IMG/VR virus record: IMGVR_UViG_3300007038_000027
Coordinates: 1-22,206 of that record
Length of the DNA: 22,206 nt
Reading direction: 5' to 3' (one strand)
Origin: a virus
The position numbers and the translations under genes were made by a program. The notes below the pieces were generated by a model that had not been told where the DNA came from, searched no databases, and worked only from the letters and a program-made list of their open reading frames with translations. Positions 1 to 17,577 of the stretch are shown here, piece by piece. The number at the start of each line of letters is the position of its first letter. Within the stretch, counting starts at the first letter, position 1.

Positions 1-470
1 AGCTGGCGCTCAAAGAACGCATTGACGTCGCCCTGCCCATCCTTGACCGTCGCCTCGGGGTTGGCCGGGACCGGAACGGCGGACAACTCCAACAGCTCCT
101 GGCGGATGAAGCGAATACCATCGCCCATGTCTCGGGGCTCAGCCTCCAGCGGGTTGAAGCTCACTGAGACCGAGTCGATAAAGTCCTCCTGGTACTTGCG
201 GTAGATCTCGGCCGCAAACTCATCGTCCAGGTCGAACTGGACGTCCAGGACAAGCTGTCCCTCCTCGATGGTCTTGCGGATGACCTTGCCGAGGGGCGGG
301 ATGGATCTGTCATGGACCCACAGGAATTTGACTTCCGACGTAAAGACCCAGCCGCCCTGGTCGATCTGATCTCCATGGCGATCGGGACTGTCCGTCGAGG
401 CGATGAACCGGAGAACGCCCTCCTTGAGGGTGTCCGATTCGGCTTTCATAACTCGGATGGTCTCTTCCAT
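1..470 (-). CDS. HK97-type prohead protease (3' end outside window)
   Basis: The frame is open from the ATG at 470 to the window edge, giving 156 residues without a stop, so the C-terminus is missing. It should be the U35-family serine protease that cleaves scaffold and capsid during head maturation. Visible signatures are DRHGDQIDQGGW near residues 30-41, catalytic His53 in WVHDRSIPPLGKV, a Ser-rich DSVSVSF segment (residues 99-105, candidate nucleophile) and ELLELSAVPVPANPEA (125-140), which is the classic prohead protease ending. A start at 470 is supported by AAGGTG upstream and by a gap of only 4 nt after the portal stop, so it is translationally coupled to the portal gene. The major capsid gene would be expected next, beyond position 1. 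Family assignment is firm from motifs; the exact catalytic Ser is inferred. Confidence 0.93.
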   Translation of the reverse strand, partial: MEETIRVMKAESDTLKEGVLRFIASTDSPDRHGDQIDQGGWVFTSEVKFLWVHDRSIPPLGKVIRKTIEEGQLVLDVQFDLDDEFAAEIYRKYQEDFIDSVSVSFNPLEAEPRDMGDGIRFIRQELLELSAVPVPANPEATVKDGQGDVNAFFERQ

Positions 471-474
471 TGTA

Positions 475-2550
475 CTACACCTTGTGAGAGATGATCTGAT
501 CGAACGCCTCAAGGGCGTTTTGTTTTTGCGCCTCAAAGTATTGGGCCACAACCGGCTCAAACTCGTCGGCCTTCTCGTCGACTTGGTCCTTGTACTTCTG
601 CCACTTCTCCTGGCGATCATGATCGGTCATTTCCATGTGGCGCTCCTGATCGGTCACGGGCAAGGAGGCACAGTGGCACCAGACGTCGTGACTCGGGTCG
701 TTCATCATGTGCGGCCCCTGCCCCGAGGTCCCATCGGACATCGTAAAGTCCTGGTTGACCGGAATGGGCTCTTTTCGGGTCCGATTCTCCATGAACTCGT
801 GCTGTTTGCGGGCGGCAGGCTTCAGGCCCCACGGGTGCAGCCAGGATTTCTTTTGGACCGATTTGGCGTCATCCATGACCTCTTGCTTGCCTCGACTGGA
901 GGCGGCCCCCATCTCATTCTGGGCGATGGTCTCGGCCCGGCTGGACTTCATGTCCTCGAAGGACTCGGCCAGGTCCTGTTTAATCTCTCGGGGATTCTTG
1001 CCGTCCTCGAAGCCATCCATCAGCGTGTCTTTGACCCGCTCCTTGGTATTCTGGTCGATCTTGCCCTTCCAGATCTCGTTGATCCGCTCGTCGACGGCCT
1101 CCTCGATGCCGGGCTTCAAGTTGCCCAGGTCCACGTCATCGGCATCCGAGCCCAGCTCCCCGATCAGGGCCGAAGCCGCCTCCTCAGTGGCCAAAGTCGA
1201 GGCGGCGACCACTTCGCCCGTCGCAGCCCCGCCGCCCTGGATGGCCTCCTCGGCCACTTGCTGGGCGTCTTGCTCTTGCTGGCCCTTGGTATACAGGTCG
1301 AAGTCCATCTCCTTGCTCTTGGGCTCCTCCTCGGCCGGGGGGCCGCCACCGTTGGAGGGGGCCGGGGCCTTCGGCCGGGCCATCTCCCCGTCCAGCTCGT
1401 CTTTGGCCTCCTGGCCAGCCATACGCCGGACCTCGTTCTTCTCGAACGAACCGGGGTGTTGCTTCATCAGCTTCCGGGTCAGCTCTTTGTCATCGGGCAC
1501 GGGGTTGGGGAAGGCGAACTCCCCGCTCCGGGCCGTCTGGATCATGGGCATGACTTTGAGATTCAGCTCCGAGATCAAGAGGGACAACCGAGGCTTGACG
1601 GCGTTTTTGTTGTAGATGACCTCGGCGGCCTCGATGGTCGCTCGGTTGGAGTCCTTGGAGTCCCCCAGGATTTCGGGTGGGATACCAAAGCCCTTGCGGA
1701 CCTTCTCCTCTTGCATGGTCCGCGTGGCCGCGGCCTCCGAGTCCCCCAGGCTACGGGACATCTCAACGGCCGACATCTCGGCCTCGGCCTCGTTGGACCC
1801 CGAGAACATAATCTTACCTGAGTTTTGCGGGCCTCCATACTCCTCGTACCACTTCTCCTTGATCTTCTTGAATTGCTTCTCACGAACCCCCGGCATGAAG
1901 ACCATCATGTCCGGTCTGGCGTGGTTGTGAAAGGTGCTGGAGATGTGCTTGGCCGCGTACTCGTCGACCTGAATCTCATCGGCCAGCGTCTGTCCCATGC
2001 CGTGGCCCCGGCCATAGAGGTTGGTCAGATCGGGCATGGTCAGGGCCGTAACCAGCTCATCGTCCAGTGTGACAAAGTCGGAGCCGAGTTTGACGTCCCA
2101 GACGGTATTGCCCTGGTCGTCCTGGGTCTGTGTGGCCTTGGTCGGCGGGATGGGCAAAAACTCGAAGCCCGTCGCATTGAAGTCCGAGGGCAGCGTCAGC
2201 CAGATGGCCTCCCCGACCAGGTCCAGATAGGCCTGAGTGATCATCGTAAAGATGTAGCCGGACTGGCGGGAGTTGGGCTTCTCGAAGATCTCCAGGGCCG
2301 GGTGGTCGGGGTCGGGCTCGGTCTGGGTCTCGGGGATGACCTGCCACTGCGTGTCCGCCACTGAGTGGGCGATCTTTGAGACACACATCCGCAGGATCGG
2401 GACCTCCTTGTAGGCCTCCAGGATGCCGGCCTTGTCCCGACTGGGCGGGAGCCGGTGGTCCTGGAGGGCCTGGAGGGCGTCCGAGGTCCCCAGCATCGTC
2501 TCATCGGAGCGCATACCGAGTAGTTTTTTGATCGGTGCAAAGAGGTTCAT
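475..2550 (-). CDS. Portal protein fused to MuF-like head morphogenesis domain
   Basis: This is a 691-aa protein. Residues about 20-360 resemble HK97/SPP1-type portals, the dodecameric DNA entry channel of the head. Recognisable parts are KIAHSVADTQWQV, IFEKPN, YLDLVGEAIW, and RKGFGIPPEILGD followed by the RATIEAAEVIYNKN helix. Residues about 370-480 are an acidic, Pro/Gly/Ala-rich linker. Residues about 500-690 resemble the phage Mu gpF/SPP1 gp7 minor head domain, with SRAETIAQNEMGAASSRG, a KSWLHPWG segment and a C-terminal HDVWCHCASLPV, equivalent to the usual NCRC-type ending. Most portals are 400-500 aa and the MuF protein is normally a separate downstream gene. The ATG at 2550 overlaps the terminase stop by 4 nt (ATGA). 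The protease gene follows after 4 nt. The fusion is seen directly as one uninterrupted frame; the functions are inferred from family resemblance. Confidence 0.92.
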   Translation of the reverse strand: MNLFAPIKKLLGMRSDETMLGTSDALQALQDHRLPPSRDKAGILEAYKEVPILRMCVSKIAHSVADTQWQVIPETQTEPDPDHPALEIFEKPNSRQSGYIFTMITQAYLDLVGEAIWLTLPSDFNATGFEFLPIPPTKATQTQDDQGNTVWDVKLGSDFVTLDDELVTALTMPDLTNLYGRGHGMGQTLADEIQVDEYAAKHISSTFHNHARPDMMVFMPGVREKQFKKIKEKWYEEYGGPQNSGKIMFSGSNEAEAEMSAVEMSRSLGDSEAAATRTMQEEKVRKGFGIPPEILGDSKDSNRATIEAAEVIYNKNAVKPRLSLLISELNLKVMPMIQTARSGEFAFPNPVPDDKELTRKLMKQHPGSFEKNEVRRMAGQEAKDELDGEMARPKAPAPSNGGGPPAEEEPKSKEMDFDLYTKGQQEQDAQQVAEEAIQGGGAATGEVVAASTLATEEAASALIGELGSDADDVDLGNLKPGIEEAVDERINEIWKGKIDQNTKERVKDTLMDGFEDGKNPREIKQDLAESFEDMKSSRAETIAQNEMGAASSRGKQEVMDDAKSVQKKSWLHPWGLKPAARKQHEFMENRTRKEPIPVNQDFTMSDGTSGQGPHMMNDPSHDVWCHCASLPVTDQERHMEMTDHDRQEKWQKYKDQVDEKADEFEPVVAQYFEAQKQNALEAFDQIISHKV

Positions 2551-3857
2551 ACGTATACCTGGATGCCATGATCGTTGTAGGCGTTCAGGGCCAGCTCCAA
2601 GGCGGAGTAAGAGTCACCGTGGCCGGACTGGTCCCGCTCGACTTTGAATTTCTGTTTGCCCGAGGGCGTCTCGGACTGCTGCACCTTGGCCAGATCGTCC
2701 AGGAGGACCCGAGATGGGGACGGCTGGAAGCCGCCATCGTCATACAACTTGGCCCCCTGGTAGGCGAACCGGATTTGGTCCTCCTCGACCAGGTTCTTGA
2801 GGGTCATCGTGTTCTCTGCCTTGCGTTCCCGGTTGCCCATCAGCCCATAGACCGACCCGGTCCCCTCCCAGTTGTCGGCAAAGGACTGATGGGCCGTGAT
2901 GTCCATGTTGACCTGTTCAGGATCATGTTGACTGATCAGTTGGTCGATGACCTGGCGCTGTTCTTTGAACGAGACCGAGCGCATCATGTAGGTCTCCTGG
3001 ACCTCTAGCCGCTCGGGGCCGTCTCGGAGGCACACAATGGACGTAAAGTCGTTCGTTTTACCGAGGTCGACGCCCATGTAGAGTGACCCCTGGTCGGCCG
3101 GCTCCCCCTCCAGGCTGCGGGCGAGCAGTTCCTGGCGGTCGAAGTACATCTCCCCCAGGGTCAGGAACATGCACAGATACTCGCGCTCAAACTTATCTTT
3201 CGGGTACTTCCGGCGGGCAGCCTCGATGTCAAAGGCGAACCGAGGGTCCCGCTGGACGGCCTGTTTGATGTCGACTCGGTGACGACTGAATGCCTCGTGT
3301 GTCTGGTCGTGATTCTCCCAGATCTCCCAGAACAAATTGCCGTGTTGGGTCCACGGGGTCGAGAAAATCCGCACGACCGAGGCCCGATTCTGGAAGGCAT
3401 CGATCTGTGGCCAGACGGCATCGACCAACTCCTCGTGAATCCGGCTGGCCCAGAAGGCGAACTCGTCGAACCAGTAGCTGGAGTCGGTGTTGCCTCGGAG
3501 CCGCCCCGGATCATGGGCCGTGGCGATCAGCTTCGAGCCGTTGGGCAGCTCAATCGAGTTCTTGTTGACCTTGACGCCCTCGACCAGGGCCTTCAGGTCC
3601 GGGTCCTCCTGGAACAGGGGCAGCCAGCGGTTCTTGATCCGGTCGAGGATCTGCCGGCGGGCGTTGGCCACCTTGGTCGAGACCAGGAAGCAAAAGTGGA
3701 CGTCGTGCCGCAGCCCGTGGAGAAAGGCCTCCAGAGCCGAGACCTCGGTCCAGCCGATCTGGCGGGACTTGAGGGCCACCTTCCAGGGGGACTGGTCCTT
3801 CAGCCATGCGACCTGCCAGGCAAACAGCCATTCTTTGATCCGGTCGATGATGTTCAT
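2547..3857 (-). CDS. terL: Terminase large subunit (packaging ATPase-nuclease)
   Basis: This 436-aa protein is the motor that cuts and packages phage DNA through the portal. The N-terminal ATPase half has a Walker A-like KSRQIGWT (residues 30-37), Walker B SSYWFDEFAFW with Asp131-Glu132, and a coupling-type IFSTPW at 165-170. The C-terminal RNase H-like nuclease half has three spaced acidic positions: Asp264 in MGVDLGKTND, Asp319 in VNMDI and Asp415 in GHGDSYSALELAL. The length fits complete TerL proteins of about 420-500 aa. The start at 3857 overlaps the small terminase stop by 4 nt, and the end overlaps the portal start by 4 nt, giving a tightly coupled TerS-TerL-portal-protease operon. 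Nothing looks truncated. Confidence 0.96.
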   Translation of the reverse strand: MNIIDRIKEWLFAWQVAWLKDQSPWKVALKSRQIGWTEVSALEAFLHGLRHDVHFCFLVSTKVANARRQILDRIKNRWLPLFQEDPDLKALVEGVKVNKNSIELPNGSKLIATAHDPGRLRGNTDSSYWFDEFAFWASRIHEELVDAVWPQIDAFQNRASVVRIFSTPWTQHGNLFWEIWENHDQTHEAFSRHRVDIKQAVQRDPRFAFDIEAARRKYPKDKFEREYLCMFLTLGEMYFDRQELLARSLEGEPADQGSLYMGVDLGKTNDFTSIVCLRDGPERLEVQETYMMRSVSFKEQRQVIDQLISQHDPEQVNMDITAHQSFADNWEGTGSVYGLMGNRERKAENTMTLKNLVEEDQIRFAYQGAKLYDDGGFQPSPSRVLLDDLAKVQQSETPSGKQKFKVERDQSGHGDSYSALELALNAYNDHGIQVYV

Positions 3858-12006: not shown

Positions 12007-12082
12007 GGCCCCTGATGCCCAAGACGGCTGAGGCGCTACCCTGTGGCGGTAGTTGTTGCCGGTTCGATTCCGGCCGGGCGGC
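12007..12082 (+). tRNA. tRNA-His (GTG), weak acceptor stem
   Basis: A complete cloverleaf core is visible. There is a D arm GCCC/AGGC at 12017-12020 and 12031-12034 with GG in the loop, and an anticodon stem CTACC/GGTAG (12036-12040, 12048-12052). Its 7-nt loop CTGTGGC has T33 and anticodon GTG (12043-12045). A 5-nt variable loop follows, then T stem GCCGG/CCGGC with loop TTCGATT. G at 12007 opposite C at 12082 matches the G-1:C73 identity pair of tRNA-His. The acceptor stem has two mismatches and one wobble, and its 5' strand can alternatively pair upstream in a GGGGC/GCCCC hairpin (11998-12012). No CCA is encoded. It may be functional or decaying. Confidence 0.65.
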
Positions 12083-12107
12083 CCTTGTTGATTCATCCTA
12101 TTCCACT

Positions 12108-14556: not shown

Positions 14557-14630
14557 GGCGGACTCGGCAATCAATGGGCTGCCAGGCGGACTGGTTGTGT
14601 TCCGGGACGGTTCGATTCCGTCCCCCGCCC
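14557..14630 (+). ncRNA. tRNA-like element, degenerate
   Basis: A T arm (GACGG-TTCGATT-CCGTC, 14606-14622) and a D arm (GGCA/TGCC, 14566-14569 and 14580-14583, with GG in the loop) are well formed. The acceptor stem pairs only in its outer five positions (GGCGG with CCGCC). The anticodon arm is poor: one register gives T33 and anticodon GGT (Thr) with two mismatches. It may be a degenerating tRNA or a tRNA-like processing element at the 3' end of the P3 transcript. Confidence 0.45.
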
Positions 14631-14765: not shown

Positions 14766-15302
14766 ATGGCTTTCGGAGATAACAAAAACAGCGCGTTTTC
14801 GACCATCGGCGACGTCGGCATCAAAGACGAGACCCTCTACTTCACCGAGCCCGGCAAGTACATCCTGGCCCTCGACAAGGTCGTGTACGGCCACGGGGAC
14901 TCGGAAGGCCAGCGGCCCGGCGACCCGTACTGCGCCTGGGAGTTTTTGGTCGTGGACCGACTCTCGGAGTCGGGCAAGCCCGAAGGAGTGGTCGTCAGCA
15001 AGGCCGATTACCTGACCGGCAAGGGCAAGAAGTACAAGCTGCGGGACATTCGCGCCATGATGGCCTCGTTCCTGCACAAGAGCCAGGAGGAGATCAGCCA
15101 ACAGGTGGCCGAGAATTTCGTCGAGGACGATGGGGCCATGGTCGACCAACTGTGGGAGGAGAATTTCGGCTGCAACCCCCTGATTTTCATGGAAATCAAG
15201 AAGTCGGTCAAAGACTCCGGGGACGTCTACCATGACGTTTATCCGCGGCCGGCGACCGAGGAGCAGATCAGGAAGTACGTCGACCAGGTGTCGCAAGGAT
15301 AA
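14766..15302 (+). CDS. Possible phage ssDNA-binding protein (OB-fold-like)
   Basis: This is a 178-aa protein. The beginning, about residues 25-65, reads GKYILALDKVVYGHGDSEGQ followed by an AWEFLVVDR strand, a pattern of glycine-interrupted beta strands seen in phage SSB-like or DUF669-type proteins. The middle (YKLRDIRAMMASFLHKSQEE) is helical. There is a long C-terminal helix but no strongly acidic SSB tail. GTGGAGC lies 7 nt before the ATG. It is first on the P4 transcript and directly upstream of the DNA polymerase, a common place for SSB. The assignment is by position and general fold pattern only. Confidence 0.55.
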   Translation: MAFGDNKNSAFSTIGDVGIKDETLYFTEPGKYILALDKVVYGHGDSEGQRPGDPYCAWEFLVVDRLSESGKPEGVVVSKADYLTGKGKKYKLRDIRAMMASFLHKSQEEISQQVAENFVEDDGAMVDQLWEENFGCNPLIFMEIKKSVKDSGDVYHDVYPRPATEEQIRKYVDQVSQG

Positions 15303-15345: not shown

Positions 15346-15409
15346 GGGCGCGAAGTGGCTTCGACTGGGCCGGTGGCCTAGGACGGGAGTTCGATTCTCC
15401 CCGCGTCCA
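15346..15409 (+). ncRNA. tRNA-like element A: intact acceptor and T arms, reduced D arm
   Basis: GGGCGCG (15346-15352) pairs with CGCGTCC (15402-15408) at all seven positions, with one G-T wobble. The T arm is GGGAG-TTCGATT-CTCCC (15385-15401), and A at 15409 takes the discriminator position. An anticodon-like arm CTGGG/CCTAG (15365-15369, 15377-15381) has a 7-nt loop CCGGTGG, reading GGT but with C instead of T33. Only about 10 nt remain for the D arm, and the variable loop has 3 nt. The total is 64 nt, against 73-76 for normal tRNAs. No CCA is encoded. Confidence 0.6.
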
Positions 15410-15412
15410 TTT

Positions 15413-15491
15413 GCCCTCTGACTTGGCACCTAGCCCAGCTCGACTCCCGTTGTGCAACCGCTAGGAGCCGGTTCGATTCCGGCGGAGGGCC
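15413..15491 (+). ncRNA. tRNA-like element B: intact acceptor and T arms, non-canonical core
   Basis: GCCCTCT (15413-15419) pairs at all seven positions with GGAGGGC (15484-15490), with one wobble, and the T arm is GCCGG-TTCGATT-CCGGC (15467-15483). The 47-nt core does not fold as a D arm plus anticodon arm. Instead CCTAGC (15429-15434) pairs with GCTAGG (15460-15465) around a 25-nt loop containing CTCCCGTTG. It starts 3 nt after element A ends. This could be a tRNA with an insertion or a tRNA-derived structure; no anticodon can be assigned. Confidence 0.55.
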
Positions 15492-15540: not shown

Positions 15541-17577
15541 GTGGCTGTATCTGACGACGATTACGTAGTCGCCTTCGACTCCGAGACCTATCCGATTACC
15601 GACCGCAAACAGGCGCCCCCGCCTGTGGTCATGCAATGGCTGGACGAACGCCGCCTGGAGCCCGGCCAAGACCCGTCCCTGGCCGTCCAGATGACGACCG
15701 ACCAGGACGAAATGCTCGACCAGTTCCAGACCTGGCTGGCCGACGACCGTTGCCATCTTGTCGCCCACAACACGTCGTTCGATGCCGGCGTCCTGTTGAA
15801 TGCCTCGGACGCGGACCCGGTTCTGTGTGATTTGTTCTTCGAGGCCCTGGAGGATGGGCGTGTCCACGATACGATGTACCGCCATCGCCTCATCAAGCTG
15901 GCGACCAAGGGATACTCGGGCAACTTCATCGGACTGGACAAACTGGTCGACCGCCATTTCAACGTGGACATCTCCGAGTCCAAGCATGACGAGTTCTCTT
16001 GGCGGACCAACTACCACTACCTGGACGGCGTTCCCCTGGCCGAGTGGCCCGAGGACGCCATCGAGTACGCCCAGATGGACCCCGTCTGGGCCTGGAAGGT
16101 CTACAAGGCCCAGGGCAAAGAGGTCACGGCGCCCAACGGGGCCGAAGTCGCTGGCCCGAACGGCGTCATCGACGAACCGCTGACCGTGACCATGGCGTGC
16201 CAACTCCAGCTCAGCTCGATCTGGGGCATGAAGGTCAACGAGGACCTGGGAAGCCAGCGGGCCCAGGAGTTGGACGCGGACTTTGAACAGATTGCTGACT
16301 CTCTGACTCAGATTGGCTTTTACACGAAGCGCGGCCCCGGCGACTACAAGAAGAACACTCAGGCGGTCAAGGACCGCGTCGTCCAGGCCTATCCCCAGGG
16401 CGAAGCCCCGAGGACCGAGAAGGGCAACGTCCGCACGGCCAAGGAGGTCCTGGCCGACTCGGGCGATGCGGCCCTCGAAAAGATGGCCGAGTTGTCGGCC
16501 GTCGAGAAGCTGCGGTCCACCTACAAGCCCATCATCGAGGATGGAGGTAGCGTCCACCCTGGCTACGATGCGCTCAAGAACACGGGCCGTTCCAGCTCGT
16601 TTTCCCCCAACATTCAGAATATCCCCCGCGGCGGCGCCATCCGCCAGTGTTTCGAGGCTCGGCCCGGCTACGTCTACGTTCTGTGTGACTACTCGACTTT
16701 GGAGCTGCGGACGCTGGCCCAGACGTGCCTCGATTTGTTCGGCGAGTCCCACCTGGCCGAAGTCTTCCAGTCGGGCCGAGACCCGCACTCACTTCTGGCT
16801 GCGGACATCCGGGACATCTCTTATGACCGCCAGGTGGCCGAGGAGAATGGCCAGCATGGCCTGAAACTGGCCAAGACGGCCAACAATACGCGCCAATTTG
16901 CCAAGGTCCCCAACTACGGCGTTCCCGGCGGCATGTGCAACTCCGAGTCCCTCCAGTCCTATGCGGCCGGCATGGGCATCGACATCGCCATCAGTGAGGC
17001 CGATGACGCCTTCGACTACTTCCATGATACCTGGGAAGTGGTCGACCGCTACTTCGGCTTCATCGAGGACAAGACCGGCTGGAAGGACGCCATGACGGTC
17101 GTCTATCCCCGCTCGGAGCGCCTCCGGGCCAAGTCCTCGTTCACTCAGGCGGCCAACGCCCTGTTCCAAGGCCCGGCGGCCGATGGCGGCCGGCTAGCGT
17201 GCCACCGACTCAATCAACGATGCCTGGCCCGGCCGGACGATGTCCTCTACGGCAGCCGCTTGTGCGCGTTCGTCCACGACGAGACCATCACCGAGGTCCC
17301 CCAGGACCGCGCCCACGAGTGTGCCATGGCCATCTCCGAGACGATGGAAACGGCCATGAACAGGTACACGCCCGACGTGGACAACGAGGCCGAGGCGGCC
17401 CTGGCCCTCCGGTGGTTCAAGTCCGCCGACCCCGTCTATAAGCCCGGCGGCGACGAACTGGAGGTCTGGCTCCCCCACGAACAAAGTGATGACGGATCAA
17501 TTGACTTCGATGATGATGAACTCAAGTACGCCGAGGACCGCCTCGGAAGGAGTATCAACTATGAGACACGCCAATGA
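15541..17577 (+). CDS. Family A DNA polymerase with 3'-5' exonuclease
   Basis: This 678-aa replicative polymerase lacks a 5'-3' exonuclease domain. Exo I is VAFDSET (Asp13, Glu15), exo II is LVAHNTSFDAGVL, and exo III is YAQMD. Polymerase motif A is CDYSTLELRTLAQ with Asp383, motif B is TRQFAKVPNYGV with Lys455 and Tyr459, and motif C is AFVHDETITEV with His579-Asp580. Tyr459 aligns with E. coli Pol I Phe762 and T7 Tyr526. The GTG at 15541 has GGGAG 7 nt upstream in the common leader. Transcription must come from P4 through the SSB-like gene and the two tRNA-like elements, since I see no promoter in the gap. The end overlaps the resolvase start by 17 nt. Confidence 0.95.
   Translation: MAVSDDDYVVAFDSETYPITDRKQAPPPVVMQWLDERRLEPGQDPSLAVQMTTDQDEMLDQFQTWLADDRCHLVAHNTSFDAGVLLNASDADPVLCDLFFEALEDGRVHDTMYRHRLIKLATKGYSGNFIGLDKLVDRHFNVDISESKHDEFSWRTNYHYLDGVPLAEWPEDAIEYAQMDPVWAWKVYKAQGKEVTAPNGAEVAGPNGVIDEPLTVTMACQLQLSSIWGMKVNEDLGSQRAQELDADFEQIADSLTQIGFYTKRGPGDYKKNTQAVKDRVVQAYPQGEAPRTEKGNVRTAKEVLADSGDAALEKMAELSAVEKLRSTYKPIIEDGGSVHPGYDALKNTGRSSSFSPNIQNIPRGGAIRQCFEARPGYVYVLCDYSTLELRTLAQTCLDLFGESHLAEVFQSGRDPHSLLAADIRDISYDRQVAEENGQHGLKLAKTANNTRQFAKVPNYGVPGGMCNSESLQSYAAGMGIDIAISEADDAFDYFHDTWEVVDRYFGFIEDKTGWKDAMTVVYPRSERLRAKSSFTQAANALFQGPAADGGRLACHRLNQRCLARPDDVLYGSRLCAFVHDETITEVPQDRAHECAMAISETMETAMNRYTPDVDNEAEAALALRWFKSADPVYKPGGDELEVWLPHEQSDDGSIDFDDDELKYAEDRLGRSINYETRQ

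Follow-up and report, generated by a model that had tools for sequence, protein, structure and literature searches.

The window analysed here is a whole IMG/VR virus record (IMGVR_UViG_3300007038_000027; 22,206 bases), and its genes include those for a terminase, a portal protein, DNA polymerase A, a helicase, an exonuclease and an endolysin-like protein (Pfam/PHROG matches). Between the end of an open reading frame (ORF) at 15302 and the start of the family A DNA polymerase gene at 15541 lie two tRNA-like elements, separated by a 3-nucleotide (nt) spacer, TTT (Table 1). A first-pass annotation had placed both elements and their base pairs correctly: element 1 is 64 nt long, with a 7/7 acceptor stem that includes one G.U pair (G3.U70) and a T loop of TTCGATT, and element 2 has a 7/7 acceptor stem, 47 nt between acceptor and T arm, and a long central hairpin. 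The single-stranded DNA-binding protein (SSB)-like label given there to the upstream ORF has no support from hidden Markov models. A scan of the window for promoters and terminators found none.

Perfect T arms occur four times in the window, all on the + strand (12058, 14606, 15385 and 15467), against an expectation of 0.017 per first-order-shuffled window (both strands counted). A 7/7 acceptor stem beside a given T arm is weakly beyond chance (4-5% for each element). Element 1 is placed beyond chance by its identity as a transfer-messenger RNA (tmRNA): when the whole window was scanned with Rfam at curated cut-offs (47 bits for the tmRNA family, RF00023), the only match was RF00023 at 15346-15412 (E = 8e-22).

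Table 1. Features of the intergenic region and its flanking genes (CDS, coding sequence; TLD, tRNA-like domain of tmRNA).
Feature	Position	Strand	Basis
TLD-only (CDS-less) tmRNA gene, 64 nt	15346..15409	+	Rfam RF00023, 60.9 bits, model 1-374/374; own model R1, 55.7 bits (the window sequence itself is among the 72 training rows of R1)
Acceptor stem, 5' strand GGGCGCG; G3 pairs with U70 (alanine identity)	15346..15352	+	sequence; kept in 348/349 relatives
tmRNA-type D region AAGTGGCTTCGA, without D stem	15353..15364	+	aligned to RF00023 consensus
P2 hairpin CTGGGCC-GGT-GGCCTAG, 7 bp, 3-nt closing loop	15365..15381	+	RF00023 alignment, covariation
T arm GGGAG-TTCGATT-CTCCC, stem 5/5	15385..15401	+	RF00023 alignment, T-arm scan
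Acceptor stem, 3' strand CGCGTCC, and discriminator A73	15402..15409	+	sequence
Element 2, tRNA-like, non-canonical core	15413..15491	+	7/7 acceptor, perfect T arm
Upstream ORF	14766..15302	+	no family match
Family A DNA polymerase with 3'-5' exonuclease (downstream gene)	15541..17577	+	PF00476, PF01612, PHROG 17

Judged by its sequence, element 1 is almost certainly a TLD-only tmRNA gene, a kind referred to below as mini-tmRNA. It has the UUCGAC D region, which in known tmRNAs is the SmpB-binding region, with GG before the UUCGAC, as well as helix P2 and a GAC linker between P2 and the T arm. The P2 hairpin occupies the place of the ~310 nt mRNA-like domain of tmRNA, with 310 RF00023 model positions replaced by 3 nt at its apex. 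A tag reading frame with a resume codon is absent from element 1, the 3-nt P2 loop leaving no room for one, as are pseudoknots between the P2 strands. CCA is not encoded in the element (it is encoded in 32% of its relatives), and ARAGORN, run on the window, did not call it. The first-pass annotation had described an abnormal core; nothing in element 1 is abnormal, because the TLD of a tmRNA normally lacks a D stem and an anticodon arm. A permuted two-piece tmRNA (RF04321) was rejected since the order is 5' half then 3' half; the only RF04321 match in the window covers 17 nt of T arm inside element 2.

An ordinary tRNA (RF00005) was likewise rejected for element 1, since the D stem and the anticodon arm with its 7-nt loop are both missing. 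The same features make it most improbable that the gene encodes a non-canonical alanine tRNA, or another unusual tRNA, that decodes: although alanine identity and the tRNA-like half would suit such a molecule, a P2 apex of 3 nt offers no 7-nt anticodon loop, and Rfam assigns the sequence to tmRNA rather than tRNA.

No close DNA relatives of the window were found in INPHARED, and none in IMG/VR when searched with polymerase peptide patterns; protein matches of the window's TerL and polymerase are remote (22-27%). Relatives of element 1 itself were sought in IMG/VR with a pattern describing a short-core TLD (TTCGAC, 8-38 nt, GGAC, T-loop), for which we report on the matches listed, and then in four complete scans with narrower patterns. 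Neither G3.U70 nor A73 formed part of the search pattern. Rows were accepted with at least 6/7 acceptor pairs and at least 4/5 T-stem pairs, the acceptor offset being the best-pairing choice within 9 positions. By this rule 349 of 369 viral rows pass, giving a class of 235 unique sequences from at least 349 viral contigs. All but one of the 349 keep both G3.U70 and A73, and A73 is present in 94/94 sequences. Unique sequences are 61-85 nt long, mostly 78-80, and 14 unique forms have at most 68 nt, like element 1. In most carriers P2 is followed by a small inner hairpin of type CCGCACGCGG, while the window has the P2 hairpin alone. In this majority form (e.g., L027, L037 and L060) the inner hairpin, about AAARCCGCACGCGGA, lies within P2 and is conserved. 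Its presence in so many phages points to either a second site for binding or a constraint on folding, absent from the window form.

ARAGORN misses 336 of the 349 class members. At one locus (L009, 2976-3318) it called a full-length tmRNA, a call that we rejected given the complete TLD placed by Rfam at 3234-3318. Cultured carriers, all without a tmRNA annotation, comprise Streptomyces phages LuckySocke, GiJojo, pSt2308, BRock and Alone3, and Stenotrophomonas virus Jojan60, in which the gene lies just before DNA primase. When GTDB genomes were scanned with this pattern, 3 rows passed among the 118 matches listed, which are a sample and not a census; in that sample bacterial genomes hardly carry the gene. 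The clearest mini-tmRNA from a bacterial genome record lies at 2882-2958 (-) of L193, from the Bacillota metagenome-assembled genome Tb.RUG.116; this 27-kb contig may be phage or prophage and has several weaker same-strand matches to tRNA-like models.

As no near kin of the window were found, the wider TLD-only class served for measuring covariation; across it the acceptor, P2 and T stems covary strongly. In the 94 unique sequences of the first scans, P2 in a fixed register is 93% paired. Shuffling the partners between sequences lowers this to 43%, and sliding them to 48% at most; this is the only set in which pairing at the second P2 position is unbiased, as three of the narrower scans demanded a Watson-Crick pair there. 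RNAalifold, applied to a MAFFT alignment of 72 sequences (A1), recovered P2 and the T stem unaided, with double changes in 9/11 pairs; 97.5% of the cells of A1 pair, and the covariation score is 0.951 vs. 0.19 shuffled and at most 0.17 slid. Acceptor pairs 4-6 run through all Watson-Crick types, while pairs 1-3 are constant (GC, GC, G.U). The first-pass annotation had fixed acceptor-stem covariation beforehand as a test of its proposal; such covariation is present, on the class rather than on close kin. Its view that the acceptor-T half is kept without a decoding core, under selection for RNA recognition and not for decoding, is thus borne out by stems that covary across relatives.

Conservation on this scale bears on whether element 1 could be what is left of a host tmRNA gene taken up at an integration site, or else a tmRNA pseudogene in decay. 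The 3' ends of tmRNA genes are common phage integration sites (PMC6109161). An attachment core, however, holds only the 3' part of the gene, and we rejected an attachment site for element 1 since its 5' half is present too; across the 235 unique sequences the 5' acceptor strand, D region and P2 are intact and covarying. The mRNA-like domain has been lost cleanly with all TLD features kept, unlike decay, and an integrase-family match occurs in just 1/54 downstream neighbours of related elements. We regard a remnant as very improbable.

The neighbouring genes, by which the carriers were judged to be phages, encode major head, portal, helicase, exonuclease and other proteins, and 273 of the 349 loci lack any tRNA gene. 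Given such mixed neighbours and few tRNA genes, the class as a rule lies neither in polymerase leaders nor in tRNA arrays. The window's proteins match few ORFs near other mini-tmRNAs, so the class is not one phage lineage.

This diversity also weighs on the role proposed in the first-pass annotation, in which the elements are minimal RNase P/RNase Z substrates whose cleavage parts the polymerase mRNA from the message upstream of it. It is true that same-strand genes flank both elements, as they do a third T arm (14606) and a tRNA-His gene (12008), and that processing happens anyway if the RNA is matured. Parting off the polymerase mRNA nevertheless fails as a general role, because related elements adjoin quite different genes. 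The G3.U70 pair, A73, the GG before UUCGAC and P2 are known features of alanylation or of the TLD; all are kept, and none is required for cleavage. Punctuation of RNA processing is therefore an improbable explanation of the element.

Among 50 carrier contigs, mostly fragments, we found neither an SmpB gene nor a full-length tmRNA, every tmRNA match over the cut-off spanning 64-85 nt; both absences are provisional. Carriers would thus depend on host factors. Peptidyl-tRNA hydrolase was found in none of 27 carriers. Two large mini-tmRNA contigs, L492 (146 kb) and L493 (115 kb), encode small GGQ-motif proteins with an RF-1 domain (134 amino acids at 356-760 (+) and 122 amino acids at 275-643 (+), respectively). 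These proteins, which resemble ribosome-rescue hydrolases, may pair functionally with blocked trans-translation.

By analogy with known systems, element 1 probably encodes a decoy or dead-end tmRNA that would occupy host SmpB, AlaRS, EF-Tu and stalled ribosomes. It is established that AlaRS reads G3.U70, that SmpB binds the TLD and substitutes for the missing lower half of a tRNA, and that SmpB and Ala-TLD need no codon to enter ribosomes. In the host, the 64-nt RNA would be matured by RNase P/Z and the CCA-adding enzyme and, through its G3.U70 pair, charged by AlaRS; its binding partners would be host SmpB and EF-Tu. Both SmpB and stalled ribosomes would then be contested between host tmRNA and the mini-tmRNA, which on the ribosome would be a dead end because it has no resume codon, tag or stop. 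In this way the phage would damp trans-translation in the infected host, and with it the tagging of nascent chains for proteolysis. For this phage we infer expression, charging, SmpB binding and inhibition alike. We favour a decoy because the TLD-only tmRNA of mycobacteriophage DS6A (tmID 11587) is reported, in PMC4131195 and PMC11915505, to inhibit endogenous tmRNA in Escherichia coli; a DS6A-like molecule inhibits whether chargeable or not, perhaps by titrating SmpB (PMC4131195).

Three points weigh against a decoy. The near-absolute conservation of G3.U70 suggests that charging matters, though the reported inhibition works regardless of charging, and a pure SmpB sponge fits less well for that reason. 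Some phages, lambda-immP22 and Mu, need tmRNA (cited in PMC12656738), so inhibition need not benefit a phage. The window record is also without close relatives in the collections, and the comparisons bear on the wider class.

The conservation of alanine identity would be expected of active, template-free rescue, in which the charged mini-tmRNA with SmpB enters stalled ribosomes, takes the nascent chain and is translocated; further copies would add an untemplated Ala tail or allow release, clearing ribosomes without the host tag. In vitro, SmpB and a TLD fragment need no mRNA to make polyalanine (Shimizu and Ueda 2006, as quoted in PMC3929946), and in mitochondria a CDS-less tmRNA may, together with SmpB, still assist where mRNAs are incomplete (PMC11915505). 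The GGQ proteins described above would also suit rescue, but they occur in just 2 of the 27 carriers, none of which has a peptidyl-tRNA hydrolase, and the sole cited test of a TLD-only phage form showed inhibition of endogenous tmRNA. We consider such rescue possible but unlikely for element 1, and we are a little more doubtful of its extension to the class, by which TLD-only tmRNAs would be a widespread phage tool, charged SmpB-dependent agents that add untemplated alanine to stalled chains, and not passive sponges.

Element 2 is no TLD, and the two elements are not copies of one thing. Its acceptor stem (GCCCTCT/GGAGGGC, 7/7) has one G.U pair, and its T arm (GCCGG-TTCGATT-CCGGC) is identical to the T arm (12058) of the tRNA-His at 12008; a chance origin is unlikely (~1e-3, the product of the T-arm and acceptor figures). 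The tRNA, tmRNA and mini-tmRNA (R1) models do not match it beyond the T arm, neither ARAGORN nor Rfam calls it as a tRNA, and no convincing D or anticodon arm was found. A second mini-tmRNA was rejected, as element 2 lacks UUCGAC and gives no R1 match, though CUAGGA precedes its T arm as in element 1. It was also rejected as a conserved partner of the mini-tmRNA, since tandem neighbours differ among carriers: 0-2 nt downstream of the mini-tmRNA there is a tRNA-Cys at one locus (L312) and a different odd tRNA-like element at three others (L096, L313 and L331). The latter element is 93 nt long and starts 2 nt after the mini-tmRNA, with a perfect acceptor and T arm and an odd core on which ARAGORN is silent. 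A decayed tRNA-His is a possible reading of element 2, given the shared T arm, though the remainder aligns poorly. Element 2 is probably a tRNA gene in its own right, unusual or degenerate, that shares a transcript with element 1.

The tRNA-His(GTG) itself, called by ARAGORN at 12008-12084 (+), has good anticodon and T arms and acceptor-stem mismatches, and scores 27.9 bits with the Rfam tRNA model, slightly under the cut-off of 29. A further feature, at 14557-14630 (+) between two genes, has a perfect T arm (GACGG-TTCGATT-CCGTC, at 14606), a 4-bp D-stem-like pairing and a 5/7 acceptor; it resembles a degenerate tRNA, with a weak tRNA-Sec match (20.7 bits; cut-off 47).

The TLD-only kind of tmRNA was already known but thought rare. 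It had been described from one phage (DS6A), from organelles and from two doubtful bacterial cases (PMC11915505), and the 2025 tmRNA database holds 9 ‘standard, no CDS’ sequences in all. What is new here is a widespread phage class: a one-phage curiosity becomes a class in diverse phages, almost all of it invisible to ARAGORN, a usual annotation tool. Interference with trans-translation, whether it is blocked or redirected, would accordingly seem to be a common tactic of phages, and culturable models for it are now at hand in Streptomyces phages LuckySocke, GiJojo and BRock and Stenotrophomonas phage Jojan60.

DS6A carries a tmRNA of the same TLD-only kind in a different phage, likened to element 1 by description and not by sequence. 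The CDS-less tmRNAs of Mallomonadaceae plastids (~65 bp) and of mitochondria are also TLDs of similar length without a tag frame (PMC11915505), but they are organellar, and the mitochondrial ones, usually from permuted genes, are accompanied by nuclear-encoded SmpB (PMC11915505). The full-length tmRNAs of phages Bxz1 and Wildcat and the two-piece tmRNA of Melnitz are, like element 1, phage-borne genes of the tmRNA family; they are not TLD-only, and full trans-translation is possible for them in principle. With the standard bacterial tmRNA (RF00023) element 1 shares the acceptor, D region, start of P2, T arm and alanine identity, while the tag frame, the pseudoknots and ~310 nt are absent. Closest in build is the SmpB-bound TLD crystal construct from Thermus thermophilus (PDB 2CZJ, PMC3929946), which joins 25 nt of the 5' end and 34 nt of the 3' end through a UUCG loop. 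At 63 vs. 64 nt the two have nearly the same architecture, one engineered and the other natural, and element 1 would thus be the natural counterpart of a TLD that structural biologists built by hand.
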